From positions 1 to 51,689 of IMG/VR virus record IMGVR_UViG_3300042465_003036: a DNA stretch of 51,689 nucleotides; one strand, 5' to 3'. The translations under genes were made by a program, and so were the position numbers. The DNA comes from a virus. This document shows, in pieces, positions 33,183-43,164 of this stretch; position 1 is the first letter of the stretch; each line of letters begins with the position of its first letter. Below the pieces are notes generated by a model. It searched no databases and was not told where the DNA came from. It saw nothing but the letters and a program-made list of their open reading frames with translations.

Positions 33183-33190
33183 TATTGTAT

Positions 33191-34270
33191 ATGGATAATA
33201 ATATAAAACTTACTAATTTGATAAAAGAGGACCTACGAAAATGGTTCAAACAAAAGTGGGTAAACATTGGCAAAAAAGTTGATGGTAAGCATCCCCCATG
33301 TGGAAGTTCTGGTGAAAAAAGTGGTTATGCTAAATGTGTTCCTGCTGCAAAAGCAGCCGGAATGAGTAAAAAAGAAAAAGAAAGTGCAACTCGTAGAAAA
33401 AGAGCAGCACAAAATGATGCAGGAAGAGGGGGTAAAAGTAGTAGTGGACAAGGTAAAGCACCAATAAATGTTTCTACTAAACCTAAAAACGAAGAGTGGA
33501 GTGATAAATATAAAAGTAGTATAGATTGTAATAATCCAAAAGGTTTCTCACAAAAAGCACATTGTGCTGGGAAAAATAAAAAAGAAAATAATATGAAACT
33601 AACAGTAGAACAAAGACTAGAACTATTCTTAGAAAAAAATGTACCAACTGACCCTGGTAAATGGGCAGCATCAAAAGCAGCCGCAAAAGCTAAATTTGAT
33701 GTATATCCATCAGCGTATGCAAATGGTTGGGCTGCAAAAAATTACAAAGCCAAAGGTGGTGGTTGGAGAACTGCTAAAGAAGGTGTAGAATTAGATGCTT
33801 TAGATGAGGCTTGTTGGGATGGATATAAGCAAGTTGGTGGTAAGATGAAGAATGGTAGAATGGTCCCAAATTGTGTACCTGTAAGTGAAGATATTGATTC
33901 GGATGATGATGTAAACTATGGTTTAGTTGAACCAGAAGAGTATGATGTTGAAGATGAAGATATGGAAGATTTTATTGCTTTTATGAAAGGATATGATAAA
34001 AACTTAAATGAAGGTTGTCAATGTTTGAGAGAAGCAGAATATCAAGGTAGAGAAGTTCAATTGGGTAAACCAATGCAAGGTGATGTTAAAAAGTTCAAAG
34101 TATATGTTAAGAATCCAGCAGGAAATGTTGTTAAAGTAAACTTTGGACAAAAAGGAATGAAAATTAGAAAATCAAACCCTGCTGCTAGAAAATCATTTAG
34201 AGCAAGAATGAATTGTGATAGTCCAGGACCGAGACATAAAGCAAACTATTGGAGTTGCAGAAAGTGGTAA
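33191..34270 (+). CDS. modular DUF5872-type phage protein, likely head-associated
   Basis: A 359-residue protein read from ATG 33191 rather than the TTG six bases upstream, which lies inside the promoter motif. Modules: a DUF5872-like Cys/Lys-rich block (about 20-82: WVNIGKKVDGKHPPCGSS, YAKCVP, a basic RRKRAAQNDAGRGGK run), a CNNPKGFSQKAHC knuckle (113-125), a second basic block (152-193), an acidic stretch (232-262), and a C-terminal RARMNCDSPGPRHKANYWSC segment (337-356). LNE/G at 272-275 could be cut by the prohead protease. Basic modules suggest contact with packaged DNA. Function is not established. Confidence 0.65.
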   Translation: MDNNIKLTNLIKEDLRKWFKQKWVNIGKKVDGKHPPCGSSGEKSGYAKCVPAAKAAGMSKKEKESATRRKRAAQNDAGRGGKSSSGQGKAPINVSTKPKNEEWSDKYKSSIDCNNPKGFSQKAHCAGKNKKENNMKLTVEQRLELFLEKNVPTDPGKWAASKAAAKAKFDVYPSAYANGWAAKNYKAKGGGWRTAKEGVELDALDEACWDGYKQVGGKMKNGRMVPNCVPVSEDIDSDDDVNYGLVEPEEYDVEDEDMEDFIAFMKGYDKNLNEGCQCLREAEYQGREVQLGKPMQGDVKKFKVYVKNPAGNVVKVNFGQKGMKIRKSNPAARKSFRARMNCDSPGPRHKANYWSCRKW

Positions 34271-37245: not shown

Positions 37246-38013
37246 ATGCCAGCACAATCAAAAGCACAACAAAGATTTATGGGAATGGTTCATTCAGCTC
37301 AAAAGGGTGATATGGAAAATCCATCACCGGAAGTTAAAAAAGCAGCTGATTCAATGTCTGATAAAGATGCCAAAGATTTTGCATCAACAAAGCACGATGG
37401 TTTACCTGACCATGTTAAGGAATTTATCATTAGAGAGGTTAGGGGTATCAAAACAATTAGTAAAGAGTATGGAGAAGTTGTAGACCAAATACAAAAACAT
37501 TTGGATTTATATAAACAAACAAAAGGAACTCCTGCTGAAAAACAACACATTCAACAACTTAAACAATTAAACGATAAGAAAAAATCATTAGCAGCTGAAT
37601 TAGACCAAAAAGTTAGTGGTATGTATAAAGATGCCGAATTAAAGGTTGATGAAATGAATGTTACTGGTAATGTTGATGGATACGGTACTCCATTTGCATT
37701 TGGTAAAGGTGAAGATGAAAAGACAAAAGGTAAAAGACAAGCCGATTTAACTGGATATACAGTAGTTAAAGAAAATCGTTGGGTAGCATTAAGACAAGAA
37801 GATTCAACTCCAACTCAAAAAATAGGAAGAGGGATTTCAAATATAAATAAACAACTTAAAGAAATGGAACAATTTCTAAGTTGGTACGGTAAAATTAAAA
37901 ATGAAAACGGAGTTTCTAACAAAAACTTTTGGAAAAGAACAAATTCTCATATTTATAATATAAAAGAGAGGTTGTTAAAATTAGACCAACAAATTCGTAA
38001 AATATCTGAATAA
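37246..38013 (+). CDS. DUF3008-type phage protein
   Basis: A 255-residue protein whose first 65 residues match the DUF3008 pattern: PAQSKAQQRFMGMVHSAQKG, PSPEVKKAADSMSDKDAKDFA, STKHDGLPDHV. After that comes a coiled-coil region (about 80-125, with YKQTKGTPAEKQHIQQLKQL), a TPFAFGKGEDEK segment and a helical C-terminus. DUF3008 modules recur in head-associated phage polyproteins. The start codon follows an 11-nt gap and the stop overlaps the next ATG (TAATG). Confidence 0.65.
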   Translation: MPAQSKAQQRFMGMVHSAQKGDMENPSPEVKKAADSMSDKDAKDFASTKHDGLPDHVKEFIIREVRGIKTISKEYGEVVDQIQKHLDLYKQTKGTPAEKQHIQQLKQLNDKKKSLAAELDQKVSGMYKDAELKVDEMNVTGNVDGYGTPFAFGKGEDEKTKGKRQADLTGYTVVKENRWVALRQEDSTPTQKIGRGISNINKQLKEMEQFLSWYGKIKNENGVSNKNFWKRTNSHIYNIKERLLKLDQQIRKISE

Positions 38014-38303
38014 TGAAATTACACCAATTAAAGGAGCTTGTTAGACAAGTTGTAAGAGAAGAGCATGATTACCAACAATTATTTAAACATATGTTGGATA
38101 AATCTGGTAAATCAATTCCATCTATGTCTGATGATGATAAGAAGAAATTCTTTAATGCAGTAGATACGGCATACAAAGCAAAATCAGAAGGTAGACTAAG
38201 AGGATACAACGAAAACTTACCTGGAAATCAAGAGAAATTAGATACCGATAAAGACGGTGAAATTGAGGCAAGTGATTTGGCAGCATTAAGAAACAAAAAG
38301 TAA
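38013..38303 (+). CDS. small protein with EF-hand-like calcium-binding loop
   Basis: A 96-residue protein. The N-terminal helix (LKELVRQVVREE) is followed by a helical pair, and near the C-terminus DTDKDGEIEASD (77-88) has the canonical EF-hand loop spacing: Asp77, Asp79, Asp81, Gly82, Ile84 and Asp88 at position 12. A single EF-hand would need dimerisation or a partner to bind calcium tightly. It sits directly before the prohead protease, overlapping it by 1 nt, so it may be a core component. Confidence 0.6.
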   Translation: MKLHQLKELVRQVVREEHDYQQLFKHMLDKSGKSIPSMSDDDKKKFFNAVDTAYKAKSEGRLRGYNENLPGNQEKLDTDKDGEIEASDLAALRNKK

Positions 38304-38893
38304 TGAGCAAAGGATTATTGATAGAAACGCATTTGTTTGAAGCAAAAATACAAGAAGAATCTAACGGTACTTTACTTGTTAAAGGTGTTTTGCAAAGAGC
38401 GGGTGCTGAAAATCAAAATGGTAGAAGATACCCTAAAGAAATTCTTGAAAGAGAATGTAAAAAATACCAACAACTTATTAACGAAAGAAGAGCATTGGGT
38501 GAATTAGACCATCCAGATTCTCCAGTTATTAACTTAAAAAATGTATCCCATAATATCAGAGAAATTTATTGGGAAGGTGATGATGTTTGTGGAGTAGTTG
38601 AAATACTTTCTACACCATCAGGTAACATTTTAAAAGAATTGTTAAAAAACAACATCCGTTTAGGTATTTCATCAAGAGGATTAGGTTCGGTAGAAGAATT
38701 AAGAGATGGAACTGTAATGGTTAAAGAAGATTTTGAATTAGTAGGTTGGGATTTCGTTTCAAACCCATCTACACATGGAGCATTTATGGCTCCGATGAAC
38801 GAATCTAAACAATGGAAGAAGATTGCGGATGAGTGTGGTAAATGGTGTAAAGCACAAGATTTAATGAGAGAAATATTAATAGAATTAAACTAA
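38303..38893 (+). CDS. prohead core protease (gp21-type)
   Basis: A 196-residue serine protease that matures the T4-type prohead by cutting after (L/I)xE. It has NQNGRRYP, then ALGELDHPDS with catalytic His70, and GISSRGLGSV with the Ser pair 123-124, followed by WDFVSNPSTHGAFM near the end. This set is diagnostic of peptidase family S80. Length matches the family (about 200-215). It is located between portal and scaffold/capsid as expected, and would act on gp22, gp23 and possibly the modular proteins in this region. Confidence 0.9.
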   Translation: MSKGLLIETHLFEAKIQEESNGTLLVKGVLQRAGAENQNGRRYPKEILERECKKYQQLINERRALGELDHPDSPVINLKNVSHNIREIYWEGDDVCGVVEILSTPSGNILKELLKNNIRLGISSRGLGSVEELRDGTVMVKEDFELVGWDFVSNPSTHGAFMAPMNESKQWKKIADECGKWCKAQDLMREILIELN

Positions 38894-38900
38894 TACAAAT

Positions 38901-39161
38901 ATGAAACTAGTAAATTTAGTACCTGGTAAAGCTATCAACAATAAAGTAGTTAAAGAATCATTAGAAGATTTGGATACAACTTTACCAATGGGTGTTGAAA
39001 GATATTTAGATAAGATGGTTTCTCAAATTAAGGGAATGAATCTTAATCGTAAAAAAGAAATGCTTGTATTGGCAAAAGTAATCGAAGCTATGGGAATGGA
39101 TAAGCAAGAATTAATGAGATACATTCAAAAAATTAAGAAAAACGATATTTTATCAAAATAA
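38901..39161 (+). CDS. small hypothetical protein of the head module
   Basis: An 86-residue mostly helical protein with a Met-rich C-terminal half (KKEMLVLAKVIEAMGMDKQELM). The N-terminus includes LVPGKAINNKVVKESLEDLD. No recognised family. It is 7 nt downstream of the protease and 2 nt before the next gene, so it is co-expressed with head genes. Possibly a prohead core (gp67/gp68-like) component by position only. Confidence 0.55.
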   Translation: MKLVNLVPGKAINNKVVKESLEDLDTTLPMGVERYLDKMVSQIKGMNLNRKKEMLVLAKVIEAMGMDKQELMRYIQKIKKNDILSK

Positions 39162-39163
39162 TT

Positions 39164-39601
39164 ATGATACGTTTAAAAGACTTACTTAAAGAATCAGACG
39201 AGTTTCAACAACTACCAACTGAATTAAAAAGACACTTCTTGGAAATCATTTCAACTTATGGACAACATAGAGAAGGAATGACTAGAAAATCTGACATCAG
39301 ACAAGTTGCTGAAACTTTGGGTGGTATTGCAGATGCGGCACAAGAATATACTTTGAGAGAAGGTGGTGATTGGTTTGATAGAGTTACTATTAAACGTAAT
39401 ATGGGTGAGTTAAAAAAATTACAATCTGCATTCGAAAAAGAATCATTAGAAGCAAAAGCACAAGAACAAAGATTAGAATCCTTATATGAAGATATGGGAC
39501 ACGTTTTAGGAAGATACTTTGAAATAGCAGATGTATCGGAAGATGTGATGAAAAGTAGATTGGGATTACAAGAATGTAAATCTTGTAAAAAAACAAAATA
39601 A
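39164..39601 (+). CDS. hypothetical helical protein of the head module
   Basis: A 145-residue charged helical protein opening MIRLKDLLKESDEFQQLP. It ends with a CKSCKKTK tail (Cys-x2-Cys), the only cysteines present, which could bind metal or form a disulfide. The central region (RQVAETLGGIADAAQEYTLREGGDWFDR) looks conserved in style with phage core proteins. The stop directly abuts the ATG of the Dps-like gene. Function unknown. Confidence 0.55.
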   Translation: MIRLKDLLKESDEFQQLPTELKRHFLEIISTYGQHREGMTRKSDIRQVAETLGGIADAAQEYTLREGGDWFDRVTIKRNMGELKKLQSAFEKESLEAKAQEQRLESLYEDMGHVLGRYFEIADVSEDVMKSRLGLQECKSCKKTK

Positions 39602-39973
39602 ATGGAAGAGTTAGCATCTTTATTATTACAAAGTAGAACTCAAGCACATTCTTACCATTGGGCAGTTAAAGGTATTGGTTCTCATTCTGCACATCTCGCA
39701 TTACAAAATTACTATGATTCAATTGGTGGATTAATAGATGGTTTAGTTGAAGCATATCAAGGTAAAGAAGGTTTGATTCAAATTTCAGGAATTGGAACAT
39801 TAGATAAAAATAGTGATATTAAAAATATTATTAATTACTTTGAAACTCTTTGTAATTTAATTGCAAAATTAAGAACAAATCCTAAATTGCAAGATTCTTG
39901 GATACAAAACGACATTGATACAATCGTATCTTTATTGTATTCTACTAAATATAAATTGGTAAATCACCAATAA
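39602..39973 (+). CDS. Dps/ferritin-like protein (DUF5856-like)
   Basis: A 123-residue helical protein. His19-Trp20, His31, Asp46 and Glu50 have the same spacing (12, 15 and 4) as the Dps ferroxidase residues His51, His63, Asp78 and Glu82 of E. coli, and the local sequence AHSYHWAVKGIGSH resembles the Dps HWNxxG segment. The second Dps acid (Asp67) is Gln35 here. It is shorter than Dps (about 167), lacking the basic DNA-binding tail. It could be a virion ferritin-like shell-associated protein or a metal-free four-helix structural protein. It is the last gene before a 225-nt non-coding region. Confidence 0.6.
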   Translation: MEELASLLLQSRTQAHSYHWAVKGIGSHSAHLALQNYYDSIGGLIDGLVEAYQGKEGLIQISGIGTLDKNSDIKNIINYFETLCNLIAKLRTNPKLQDSWIQNDIDTIVSLLYSTKYKLVNHQ

Positions 39974-40065
39974 AATCTACAAATATACAAAAAAATATTG
40001 ATAATTCCAAAGAAATTTAGAATTTTTCTTTAGTTTTCTAAAAAGTTATATACTTATTATCAAAT

Positions 40066-40092
40066 ATCCCATTTATTATGGGATTACTTTTT
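40066..40092 (+). terminator. weak intrinsic-terminator-like hairpin after the Dps-like gene
   Basis: Perfect 7-bp inverted repeat ATCCCAT (40066-40072) and ATGGGAT (40078-40084) with a 5-nt TTATT loop, followed after 3 nt by a run of five T (40088-40092). The stem is short, so termination may be partial. It would separate the terminase-to-Dps unit from scaffold and capsid transcription. Confidence 0.45.
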
Positions 40093-40095
40093 ATA

Positions 40096-40143
40096 GTTGA
40101 TTAACGAATACCCTTCCTTATAAGGCGTGACCGAACAATCAAC
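40096..40143 (+). promoter_or_regulatory. structured 5' leader of the scaffold-capsid transcript
   Basis: In the 225-nt gap (39974-40198), GTTGATT (40096-40102) pairs perfectly with AATCAAC (40137-40143) and encloses the palindrome CCTTATAAGG (40116-40125). It is the least AT-rich stretch of the gap and contains no ORF. It ends 55 nt before the scaffold ATG, which has no Shine-Dalgarno sequence. It may be a translational or stability element for the very abundant capsid mRNA. I found no match to a known riboswitch or ribozyme core. The rest of the gap holds A/T-rich sequence and the hairpin just upstream. Confidence 0.4.
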
Positions 40144-40198
40144 AGAATATCATTGGAGTTGTATTCAATAACTTCACAAGTAAATCATAAAAAAATAA

Positions 40199-41509
40199 AT
40201 GGCAAACTCAAAATTGTTAAAAGAAGCAATCGCCGATGCTAAAGCCGTAAAGGAAACTGCATTAGCAAACGCAAAGTTAGCACTTGAAGAAGCATTCACT
40301 CCAAGATTACAATCTATCTTATCTCAAAAGATGAGAGCAGAAGCTGAAGAAATGGAAAATGATGACCAAGAAGCTACAAACGAAGAATTGGATTCTACTG
40401 GTATTGGTTCAAAAGTTGGAACTGATGCAGCAGAAACACCGGGTTCTCAACCATCATTATATGCAGATACTGATTTATCAGTAGGTGTTGCAAAAGATGG
40501 TGGCAAACCAGAACAATCGGGAACTGACTACGAAAAAGTAGCAGACATCAACGAAGAAGATGATTATGACTTCGGTGGTGAAGAAGAAGATGATAATGCT
40601 GAAGAAATAGCTGAATTAAGAGCTAGATTAGCAGAATTAGAAGGTGATAGTGAAGAAAAAGAAGAAACTCCAATGGAAGGTGAATATGGAATGGATTCTG
40701 AAGAAGACCCAATGGAAGGTGAATATGGAATGGATTCTGAAGAAGACCCAATGGAAGGTGAAGAAGAAGATGAAATGGGATTAGAAGCTATTATCAGAGA
40801 ATTGGAAGCACAATTAGGTGATGAAGAAGGTTCTGAAGAAACAAACGAAGAAGAGGAAGAAGAAGAAGACCCTAACGCAGACCAAATTGCAGAATTAAGA
40901 AGACAATTGGCTGAATTAGAAGGTGATGAGGAGAAAGAAGAAGAACCAAAAATGGAATCTAAAAGATTAAAAGAATCACGTAGAAGATTAAGAGAAGATT
41001 ATACTGACGGAGCTGAGGCAGGAACTGACCCAGATGGTGAGAAAGTAATTGACTTAGAAGAAATTCTTCGTGAAATGGAAGATGATTTGAAAGATAAAGT
41101 TGAAGAAGGTGAAGAAGAAGATGCTGAAGAATTGAAAGCAGACTTAAACGAAGCTTACAAAACTATCAAATCATTACAATCAACTATCAACGAAGTAAAC
41201 TTATTGAATGCAAAATTATTATTTGCAAACAAATTGTTCAGAGCTCACAACATGACTAACGAACAAAAAGTTAAGGTAATTGAAACTTTAGATAGAACAA
41301 AATCAGTAAGAGAAGTTAAATTGGTTTACTCTACATTAGCAGAGAATTTCAAATATACTTCATCAAACAGAATTGCTAAGAAATCAATTGCAGAAGGAAT
41401 CGCAAGTAAAGTAGTTAAATCTACTAAGCCATCGGTTCAAAAGCAAGTAATTTCTGAATCTGTAGCAGTAGCTAACAGATTTAAAAAATTAGCTGGTATT
41501 ATTAAATAA
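40199..41509 (+). CDS. prohead core scaffolding protein (gp22-like)
   Basis: A 436-residue, extremely acidic protein. The N-terminal helix (AIADAKAVKETALANAKLALEEAF) is followed by Glu/Asp-rich coils (150-250), a 13-residue tandem repeat PMEGEYGMDSEED, and a helical C-terminus ending VAVANRFKKLAGIIK. Position between the protease and capsid genes, acidity and coiled-coil content all match T4 gp22, which is degraded by the prohead protease after assembly. It is longer than T4 gp22 (269) mainly through the acidic repeats. The leader has no Shine-Dalgarno sequence. Confidence 0.75.
   Translation: MANSKLLKEAIADAKAVKETALANAKLALEEAFTPRLQSILSQKMRAEAEEMENDDQEATNEELDSTGIGSKVGTDAAETPGSQPSLYADTDLSVGVAKDGGKPEQSGTDYEKVADINEEDDYDFGGEEEDDNAEEIAELRARLAELEGDSEEKEETPMEGEYGMDSEEDPMEGEYGMDSEEDPMEGEEEDEMGLEAIIRELEAQLGDEEGSEETNEEEEEEEDPNADQIAELRRQLAELEGDEEKEEEPKMESKRLKESRRRLREDYTDGAEAGTDPDGEKVIDLEEILREMEDDLKDKVEEGEEEDAEELKADLNEAYKTIKSLQSTINEVNLLNAKLLFANKLFRAHNMTNEQKVKVIETLDRTKSVREVKLVYSTLAENFKYTSSNRIAKKSIAEGIASKVVKSTKPSVQKQVISESVAVANRFKKLAGIIK
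40670..40762 (+). repeat. 39-bp in-frame tandem repeat in scaffold gene
   Basis: Two complete 39-bp units starting CCAATGGAAGGTGAATATGG at 40670 and 40709, nearly or fully identical at DNA level, with a third partial start at 40748. Each unit encodes 13 residues (PMEGEYGMDSEED). The near-identity suggests recent duplication by slippage or unequal recombination. Confidence 0.85.
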
Positions 41510-41529: not shown

Positions 41530-43164
41530 ATGAACTTAAAAAAATTAATGACAGGTGCTAACCCACAGAGCGTAATGCTTGAGCAAACTAGAGGTTTGAA
41601 AGGCAAGTGGGAAAAAACAGGATTACTTGAAGGAGTAGGTTCTGAAACAACTAAGCATGGTATGGCAGTAATGTTAGAAAACCAAGCTAAGCAATTATTG
41701 GACGAGGCAACTCGTACAGGTACATCTTCTGGTTCAGAAGAGTGGGCAGGTGTTGCTCTACCTTTGGTAAGACGTATTTTTGGTTCTATCGCAGCGAAAG
41801 AATTCGTTTCGGTTCAACCAATGAACTTACCATCAGGTCTTATTTTCTATATGGACTTCAAATATGGTACTGATACAACAGTAGGTAGACCAGCTTCTGG
41901 TTCTTCTATGTTCGGTAATGGTGGTACTTTTGGAAAAGATTCATTATCTCCATCAGGTAATAAATTGGGTTCTACTCAAGCTACTGAAGGTGGTCTTTAC
42001 GGAGCAGGACGTTTCGGATATACAATCAACGATACATCAGCTAATTTATCAGCATTAGTTGCATCTGCATCTTTAGCAGATATTTCATTTGATTTAACTG
42101 ATTCTACTATTTCTGCATCATACGCAGCAGGTAAACTTAAAAAATTAACTGTAGCATTACCGGATGCAGCTGATTTCAATGCGGTAAGAGCATTTGATTT
42201 TGTACAATCAGGTTCTGGATATACACAATATCCTCAATATACTGTTAAAAATGGTTCAAACGTAGTATTTGTAGCAGCAGTTGCTGCAGCAGGTACTTAC
42301 GCAGGTGCGAGTGATTCTGTACCTGTAGGTGGTCAATTACAATACCATTTACAACCAACTGATATTTCTCGTGGAGATTTTGAAGATAGAGGTTCTGATT
42401 TAGCGATTCCTGAAATCGAATTAGAATTGAAATCTGAGCCTATCGTTGCTAAGACTCGTAAGTTGAAAGCAATCTGGACTCCTGAATTAGCTCAAGATTT
42501 AAATGCATATCACTCAGTAGATGCTGAAGCTGAATTAACTCAAATGTTATCTGAGTATATCTCATTAGAGATTGACTTAGAAATCTTAGAGATGTTGCAG
42601 CAAAATGCATTCTCAACTGAATATTGGTCAGCAAGAGTTGGATACGATTACAATTCTGGAAACGGAACATTTGAAGTTGATTCTAACGCAGCAGCAGCTT
42701 CTGCTTACACAAAATCAACTTGGTTCCAGACTTTGGGAATCAAATTACAGAAAATCTCTAACAAGATTCACCAATTGACTATGAGAGGTGGAGCAAACTT
42801 TATTGTTGTTTCTCCAAACGTAGCTACAATCTTAGAATCAATGAACGGATTCTCTGCAAACCCTGGTAAAGATGCTTTAACTTTTGCAGCGGGTGTAACT
42901 AACATCGGACAAATCTCAAACAGATACGATGTTTACAAAAACCCTTATATGACTGAGAACGTTATCTTATTAGGATTTAAAGGTTCTAACTTCTTCGAGA
43001 CAGGTGCGGTTTACGCTCCATACGTTCCGTTGATTATGACTCCATTAGTGTACGATCCAGTTAATTTCACTCCAAGAAGAGGTGTTATGACTCGTTACGC
43101 TAAGAAAATCGTAAGACCAGAATTCTACGGTAAAATCGTAATTGATGGTTTAGAGACTCTTTAA
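41530..43164 (+). CDS. major capsid protein (gp23-type)
   Basis: A 544-residue protein forming the head hexamers. Diagnostic parts are an N-terminal prodomain ending in GLLEG, with a candidate gp21 cut after Glu34; MLENQAKQLLDEA; WAGVALPLVRRIFGSIAAKEFVSVQPM near 75; and later ARTRKLKAIWTPELAQDLNAYH-type and FVVVSPNVA-type segments, ending YVPLIMTPLVYDP...RYAKKIVRPEFYG. A variable Ala/Ser-rich region (about 170-270) probably corresponds to the surface insertion domain. It is 20 nt after the scaffold gene with no separate promoter motif, and a strong terminator follows. Base composition is less AT-rich than the neighbours, as expected for a highly expressed gene. Confidence 0.93.
   Translation: MNLKKLMTGANPQSVMLEQTRGLKGKWEKTGLLEGVGSETTKHGMAVMLENQAKQLLDEATRTGTSSGSEEWAGVALPLVRRIFGSIAAKEFVSVQPMNLPSGLIFYMDFKYGTDTTVGRPASGSSMFGNGGTFGKDSLSPSGNKLGSTQATEGGLYGAGRFGYTINDTSANLSALVASASLADISFDLTDSTISASYAAGKLKKLTVALPDAADFNAVRAFDFVQSGSGYTQYPQYTVKNGSNVVFVAAVAAAGTYAGASDSVPVGGQLQYHLQPTDISRGDFEDRGSDLAIPEIELELKSEPIVAKTRKLKAIWTPELAQDLNAYHSVDAEAELTQMLSEYISLEIDLEILEMLQQNAFSTEYWSARVGYDYNSGNGTFEVDSNAAAASAYTKSTWFQTLGIKLQKISNKIHQLTMRGGANFIVVSPNVATILESMNGFSANPGKDALTFAAGVTNIGQISNRYDVYKNPYMTENVILLGFKGSNFFETGAVYAPYVPLIMTPLVYDPVNFTPRRGVMTRYAKKIVRPEFYGKIVIDGLETL

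Follow-up and report, generated by a model that had tools for sequence, protein, structure and literature searches.

A predicted Dps-like mini-ferritin of the DUF5856 family encoded in a phage head module

The product of a gene in the head module of a T4-like phage, represented by a 51,689-base virus record (IMGVR_UViG_3300042465_003036, analysed at its full length and here termed the window), is probably a mini-ferritin acting in the manner of Dps, a prediction to which we would assign a probability of roughly two in three. The ORF (Table 1) is intact and real, and codes for 123 residues. From its residues, their register and its predicted fold, we infer that the product would act as an iron-oxidising mini-ferritin; the proposal of iron or peroxide handling in a preliminary description of the region thus stands as a prediction, based on the Dps fold of the model and on four metal ligands kept throughout the homologues. 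The protein is filed under DUF5856, rather than as a member of the Dps family, because the Dps Asp67 position, the helix in the BC loop and the Pfam Ferritin cut-off were each tested, and it lacks the first two and scores below the third.

Table 1. Features of the predicted mini-ferritin gene and its surroundings in the window
Feature	Position	Strand	Evidence
Predicted Dps-like mini-ferritin gene, DUF5856 / phrog_858	39602..39973	+	ORF, PF19174, phrog_858 E 1.2e-16, AlphaFold2 four-helix bundle
His19 codon, counterpart of E. coli Dps His51	39656..39658	+	sequence; unchanged in 152/152 distinct cores
His31 codon, counterpart of Dps His63	39692..39694	+	sequence; unchanged in 152/152
Gln35 codon, at the Dps Asp67 position	39704..39706	+	sequence; homologues mostly Gly, Asn, Gln, Glu
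Asp46 codon, counterpart of Dps Asp78	39737..39739	+	sequence; unchanged in 152/152
Glu50 codon, counterpart of Dps Glu82	39749..39751	+	sequence; unchanged in 152/152
Asp106 codon, fourth helix, nearly invariant	39917..39919	+	148/152 (2 gaps, 1 Ala, 1 Gln)
Hairpin resembling a terminator, T-rich tail, shortly 3' of the mini-ferritin gene	40066..40084	+	pattern match only
S77 prohead protease (gp21-like)	38303..38893	+	PF03420, 102.4 bits
gp23-like major capsid protein	41530..43164	+	PF07068, 259.2 bits

Candidate metal ligands and their conservation

The preliminary description had proposed that four residues, His19, His31, Asp46 and Glu50, reproduce the 12-15-4 spacing of the ferroxidase ligands of E. 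coli Dps, with an HWxxxG context and with Gln in place of an additional Asp. All of this is borne out by the sequence: the four residues are at the positions claimed, the context reads HWAVKG, and Gln35 occupies the position of the extra Asp. The yardstick was itself checked in E. coli K-12 dps, where the ligands are His51, His63, Asp78 and Glu82 and the extra Asp is Asp67. The possibility of a chance motif is ruled out by the conservation described below together with the rarity of the pattern: when the window protein was shuffled 100,000 times, H-12-H-15-D-4-E arose in 28 of the shuffles.

Homologues were collected as 218 loci, all of which match the family profile; five scans of viral contigs contributed 79, 16, 31, 31 and 46 of these, the remainder being five sampled from 42 phage records and ten from genome contigs. 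The first genome-contig scan yielded no relative, and the ten loci from the second are all in MAG records and are not established as host genes. After four loci encoding fewer than 100 residues (L069, L073, L169 and L235) had been left out, and with the window protein included, there were 152 distinct cores.

Loss of the four residues in homologues, which had been named as the observation that would speak against the proposal, was not seen: His19, His31, Asp46 and Glu50 are identical in all 152 cores, at identities down to 25%. Only six of the 123 columns are fully invariant, those beyond the four ligands being Ala33 and Tyr38, and the ligands are still invariant when each 50%-identity cluster is reduced to one representative (n = 17). 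The chance probability that four preset columns would all fall among seven invariant ones of 123 is 4e-6, a rough guide in that the seven come from a smaller alignment and columns are treated as equal. Several of the scans were seeded with peptide patterns holding some of the ligand residues; in an unseeded tblastn set, in which five of 42 phage records were sampled, all four ligands are kept in 5/5.

The 15-4 part of the spacing is present in every one of the 152 cores. The spacing between the two His residues is 12 in 84 cores, 9 in 47 and 13 in 21, and the change falls in the loop joining the first two helices. At the position corresponding to Dps Asp67 (residue 35), 82 cores have Gly, 35 have Asn, 13 have Gln and 12 have Glu, the rest having other residues. 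Outside the four ligands, His16 is kept in 149/152 cores, as is Lys118 (with gaps in the other three); Trp20, which corresponds to Dps Trp52, is mostly Leu in the homologues.

Predicted fold, family and relation to Dps

The AlphaFold2 model, made with 57 sequences (mean pLDDT 96.2, pTM 0.89), is a predicted four-helix bundle with helices at residues 2-21, 27-56, 73-90 and 99-121. A short BC helix, between helices B and C, is a feature of Dps; it is absent from the model, in which residues 57-72 are coil. Among the 50 Foldseek matches listed, all are Dps-type by title except for a putative bacterioferritin and a mini-/maxi-ferritin construct, the best E value being only 6e-3. Comparison using VIA-align gave Z 14.4 with M. 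smegmatis Dps2 (8hwz) and 13.5 with E. coli Dps (6gcm), Z values of 13-14 being at the edge of the range that unrelated helical bundles can reach. Because helical bundles can attain Z 13 by arrangement alone, fold and ligands were weighed together. In the VIA-align superposition, which covers 121 residues at an rmsd of 2.2, the first residue of the model pairs with Dps residue 33, and this offset of 32 is the same as that relating His19 to His51, His31 to His63, Asp46 to Asp78 and Glu50 to Glu82.

Predicted folds that are very similar (TM ~0.8) are present in BFVD for two uncharacterised proteins of giant viruses that infect eukaryotes, A0A7D3V608 (Fadolivirus) and A0A481ZC29 (Pithovirus). In addition, part of each of three BFVD proteins named 'Prohead protease' (A0A6J7WPK9, A0A6J7XDU5 and A0A6J7WIS1, of 763, 333 and 432 residues, respectively) matches the Dps-like model (prob 1.00), and these may be protease-mini-ferritin fusions. 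When E. coli Dps or an alignment of Dps sequences served as the query, true phage Dps was recovered but the BFVD 'prohead protease' proteins were not.

At the level of families, the window protein scores above the cut-off for DUF5856 (PF19174; 51.6 versus 34.6 bits) and matches phrog_858; all 57 members of alignment A2 also match DUF5856, a family described as of unknown function, and 13 of the 57 match Ferritin as well (E <= 0.1 in both cases). The window protein's own match to PF00210 Ferritin (E 0.0012, 19.2 bits) is under the cut-off of 24.5 bits, and NCBIfam returned nothing for it. The DUF5856 match starts at residue 27 and leaves the first helix, with His19, outside, which may explain why the link to Dps was not obvious. 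PDB sequence searches were led by Dps-type proteins (Campylobacter CAIP and H. pylori NAP), and profile-profile comparison with six Dps sequences (A4, comprising that of E. coli and five from phage-collection records) gave 91% and E 1e-6, with the four ligands aligned, for the first two helices only. The control genome, that of Bacillus subtilis, has a sub-cut-off DUF5856 match, possibly to one of its Dps proteins. A search of the open-access literature returned nothing on DUF5856, and within that literature neither its link to a ferroxidase nor the leader described below was found in print; both are apparently new.

The label attached to phrog_858 in PHROG, and also used in RefSeq, is 'starvation-inducible transcriptional regulator', and taken literally it would make the protein a DNA-binding or transcription regulator. 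The name is what speaks for this reading, and it most likely derives from that of Dps, 'DNA protection during starvation'. The protein lacks a basic tail, Pfam finds no known DNA-binding domain in it, and a regulatory role, now rejected, appears very improbable.

The preferred reading, that of a mini-ferritin, can be set against what is known of bacterial Dps. In Dps the iron site is formed by two His residues from one subunit with an Asp and a Glu from its partner; within one chain the ligands are kept apart, at the two ends of a helix pair, and cannot come together. Retention of the exact ligand pattern would imply the same dimer as in Dps. Two subunits would pair via their first helix hairpins, giving each dimer two Fe(II) sites made up of His19 and His31 from one subunit and Asp46 and Glu50 from the other, and the dimers may build a larger shell. 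Each site would oxidise Fe(II) with peroxide or oxygen, the expected outcome being that no hydroxyl radicals would arise from iron and peroxide in the vicinity of phage DNA that is replicating or has just been packaged. The missing Asp67 ligand may be dispensable or may be replaced, perhaps by the nearly invariant Asp106; its absence would be expected to weaken the second iron site, unless Asp106 or His16 substitutes.

The likeness to bacterial Dps (E. coli Dps, M. smegmatis Dps2, H. pylori NAP) thus comprises the predicted four-helix bundle and the order and register of His51, His63, Asp78 and Glu82. By contrast, the window protein is shorter (123 versus 167 residues) and is without an Asp67 equivalent, the BC helix and an N-terminal DNA-binding tail. 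Phage Dps proteins are known from Lactobacillus phages (PMC6669764) and 'Gratiaviridae' gut phages (PMC8008677), and these papers propose that they lower oxidative damage during infection, with Fe(II) oxidation by peroxide or oxygen like that suggested here. The six A4 sequences keep the Asp67 position and the HW motif, whereas DUF5856 does not, this contrast being drawn from the A4 set.

The head module and the position of the gene in relatives

The gene had been placed between the protease and scaffold genes, a description that is correct in outline. The protease is confirmed by Pfam, as is a T4-type portal near the mini-ferritin gene; however, two small ORFs (38901-39161 and 39164-39601) intervene between the protease and the mini-ferritin gene, and the 'scaffold', an acidic protein of 436 residues (40199-41509), has no Pfam match and is so labelled because of its position and composition. 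The stop codon of the upstream 145-residue gene abuts the ATG of the mini-ferritin gene, and with a terminator-like hairpin downstream (one found versus 0.2 expected in shuffles), the mini-ferritin gene looks to be the last in its transcription unit. Rfam found nothing in 39900-40300.

A 96-residue protein encoded before the protease (38013-38303) has a C-terminal end that is calcium-loop-like, with Dockerin/EF-hand matches below cut-off, and an N terminus of the LxxLxKE type. The same type of N terminus is shared by the products of 33185-34270 and 39164-39601, and is possibly the phage's own targeting leader; the pattern occurs in three of 51 ORFs versus one of 299 internal Met residues and is absent from the mini-ferritin.

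In the window clade, the gene is flanked by the 145-residue gene and the acidic 436-residue gene preceding gp23, while in a clade of ~54% identity it is found on the other side of gp23, followed by a 398-residue gene; it has moved between these two clades yet stayed within the head module. All 17 of the larger records tested have one DUF5856 gene and gp23. The two are within ~3 kb of each other in the ten records of the window and 54% clades, and at least 19.5 kb separates the gene from the best gp23 match in the seven records of the N-terminally extended clades, two of which (G018 and G022) have weak, sub-cut-off gp23 matches close to the DUF5856 gene. Kinship alone could explain this split in distance between clades. 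In one member of the 54% clade a DNA methyltransferase-like gene (phrog_2675; L121:5300-5965) is present between gp23 and the Dps-like gene, and the gp23 matches in G037 and G022 are reported with in-frame TAA/TAG codons, which may reflect sequence error, a split gene or recoding. Elsewhere, the neighbours of the gene are varied, including rI in Aeromonas phage Aes508, endolysin in Caulobacter phage GB2A, glycosyltransferases in Microcystis phage Mel-JY01, terminase genes in L126, and GroES and nuclease genes in a spring-water myovirus.

These positions bear on the alternative raised in the preliminary description, of a head protein with a structural or scaffold role, composed of four helices and descended from Dps but with its activity lost. 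Location in the head module of the window clade and, across the capsid gene, of the 54% clade would suit such a protein, as would the failure to keep the Asp67 position. However, in other relatives the gene is away from the capsid genes, beside those for terminase, rI, endolysin or glycosyltransferases, and few residues are as well kept as the four metal ligands. Since a dead scaffold is unlikely to keep exactly these residues at 25% identity, loss of activity is disfavoured and appears improbable.

N-terminal leaders in relatives and possible packaging

A mini-ferritin encoded in a head module might be carried in the virion, being packed during assembly and then either protecting the packaged DNA or entering the cell with it. 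The preliminary description had suggested a protein carried in, or made with, the capsid. That it is made with the capsid is likely from the position of its gene between the protease and capsid genes; carriage is unsupported for the window protein, which, like all 84 window-clade loci examined, starts no more than four residues from the core and has no leader, the ORF opening at helix A. A T4-type leader is thereby ruled out as the means of packaging the window protein itself, and carriage would require another route; three other head-module proteins share a different type of N terminus, which the window protein lacks. In the window phage the protein would be made alongside head proteins and would act inside the infected cell.

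Two clades of relatives differ in having a short leader of the type M-K/I-x-F-x-x-F/I ahead of the core, present in nine of nine proteins of one (L128-L136) and in most of the other (L194-L228). This motif was chosen after the sequences had been seen, and the counts that follow are post hoc in that sense. In two records of the first clade in which both S77 protease and gp23 are present, it starts five of 177 ORFs, two of which encode the Dps-like protein, and is absent from the 36,176 residues beyond position 45. In the second clade, a similar motif is present in 31 of 35 Dps-like proteins, compared with 20 of 393 other ORFs and eight of 1529 internal Met residues. With the preference for N-terminal Lys controlled for, the motif was found in 14 of 35 other ORFs versus 2.0 expected; seven of the 14 belong to one protein family, and a strict LxE requirement leaves 2/35.

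A site of LxE type ([LIVF]xE followed by A, G, S, D, Q, T or N) is present in 25 of 36 distinct leaders, versus 6.7 in shuffles. In L207, the leader (residues 1-35) is predicted to be disordered (pLDDT <50) and is followed by a Dps-like core with a best Z of 13.5. When 64 cores were placed in a tree, the proteins with an N-terminal extension, defined by a core offset of at least 12 and hence more broadly than by the leader motif, fell in at least two separate starred groups.

The leaders resemble those of the T4 internal proteins IPI, IPII and IPIII: among 30 CDS translated from a 20-kb stretch of T4, a similar motif that also admits Tyr selects ipI, ipII and ipIII and no others. According to two papers (PMC3012670, PMC9958956), a T4 internal-protein leader suffices for foreign proteins to be packaged in the head and is cleaved by gp21; cleavage of T4 Alt at ITE and LTE is given in a third (PMC5694885). 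Unlike the T4 internal proteins, the window protein is leaderless, and the cargo in the relatives would be a Dps-like bundle. On the basis of the leader motif, the LxE-type site and the likeness to T4, packaging is therefore proposed for some relatives, the sequences suggesting that these may be placed in the head by means of a leader cut by the prohead protease.

Other observations weaken the case. The leader is also borne by enzymes not known as head proteins, including a pterin-4a-carbinolamine dehydratase-like protein (Pfam E 2e-21) encoded just upstream of a Dps-like gene (L211:4533-4973) and a cytidyltransferase-like neighbour. Moreover, S77 protease was found in only 2/15 and 7/12 of the records searched (two and three over the cut-off), many of which are fragments. 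Taken with the absence of a leader in the window clade, these points leave a virion-carried mini-ferritin, reached via a leader in some relatives and via another route in the window phage, as a tentative possibility.

Similarly tentative is a wider reading in which DUF5856 would be a virus-associated branch of the mini-ferritins, with an iron site of its own consisting of two His, an Asp and a Glu, and with a fourth-helix Asp in place of Asp67. In several lineages of large T4-like phages, the leader would have been gained, at least twice in all, and the ferroxidase would enter the head along with the genome, be released there by the prohead protease, and be either delivered or kept as a virion antioxidant and iron sink.

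The results give a probable function to an uncharacterised phage family that is labelled as a transcription regulator, and tie it to the chemistry of iron and peroxide. If the leader-bearing relatives are indeed packaged, phage heads would hold an iron-oxidising enzyme, which would bear on how iron enters phage particles and on the survival of packaged DNA under oxidation.
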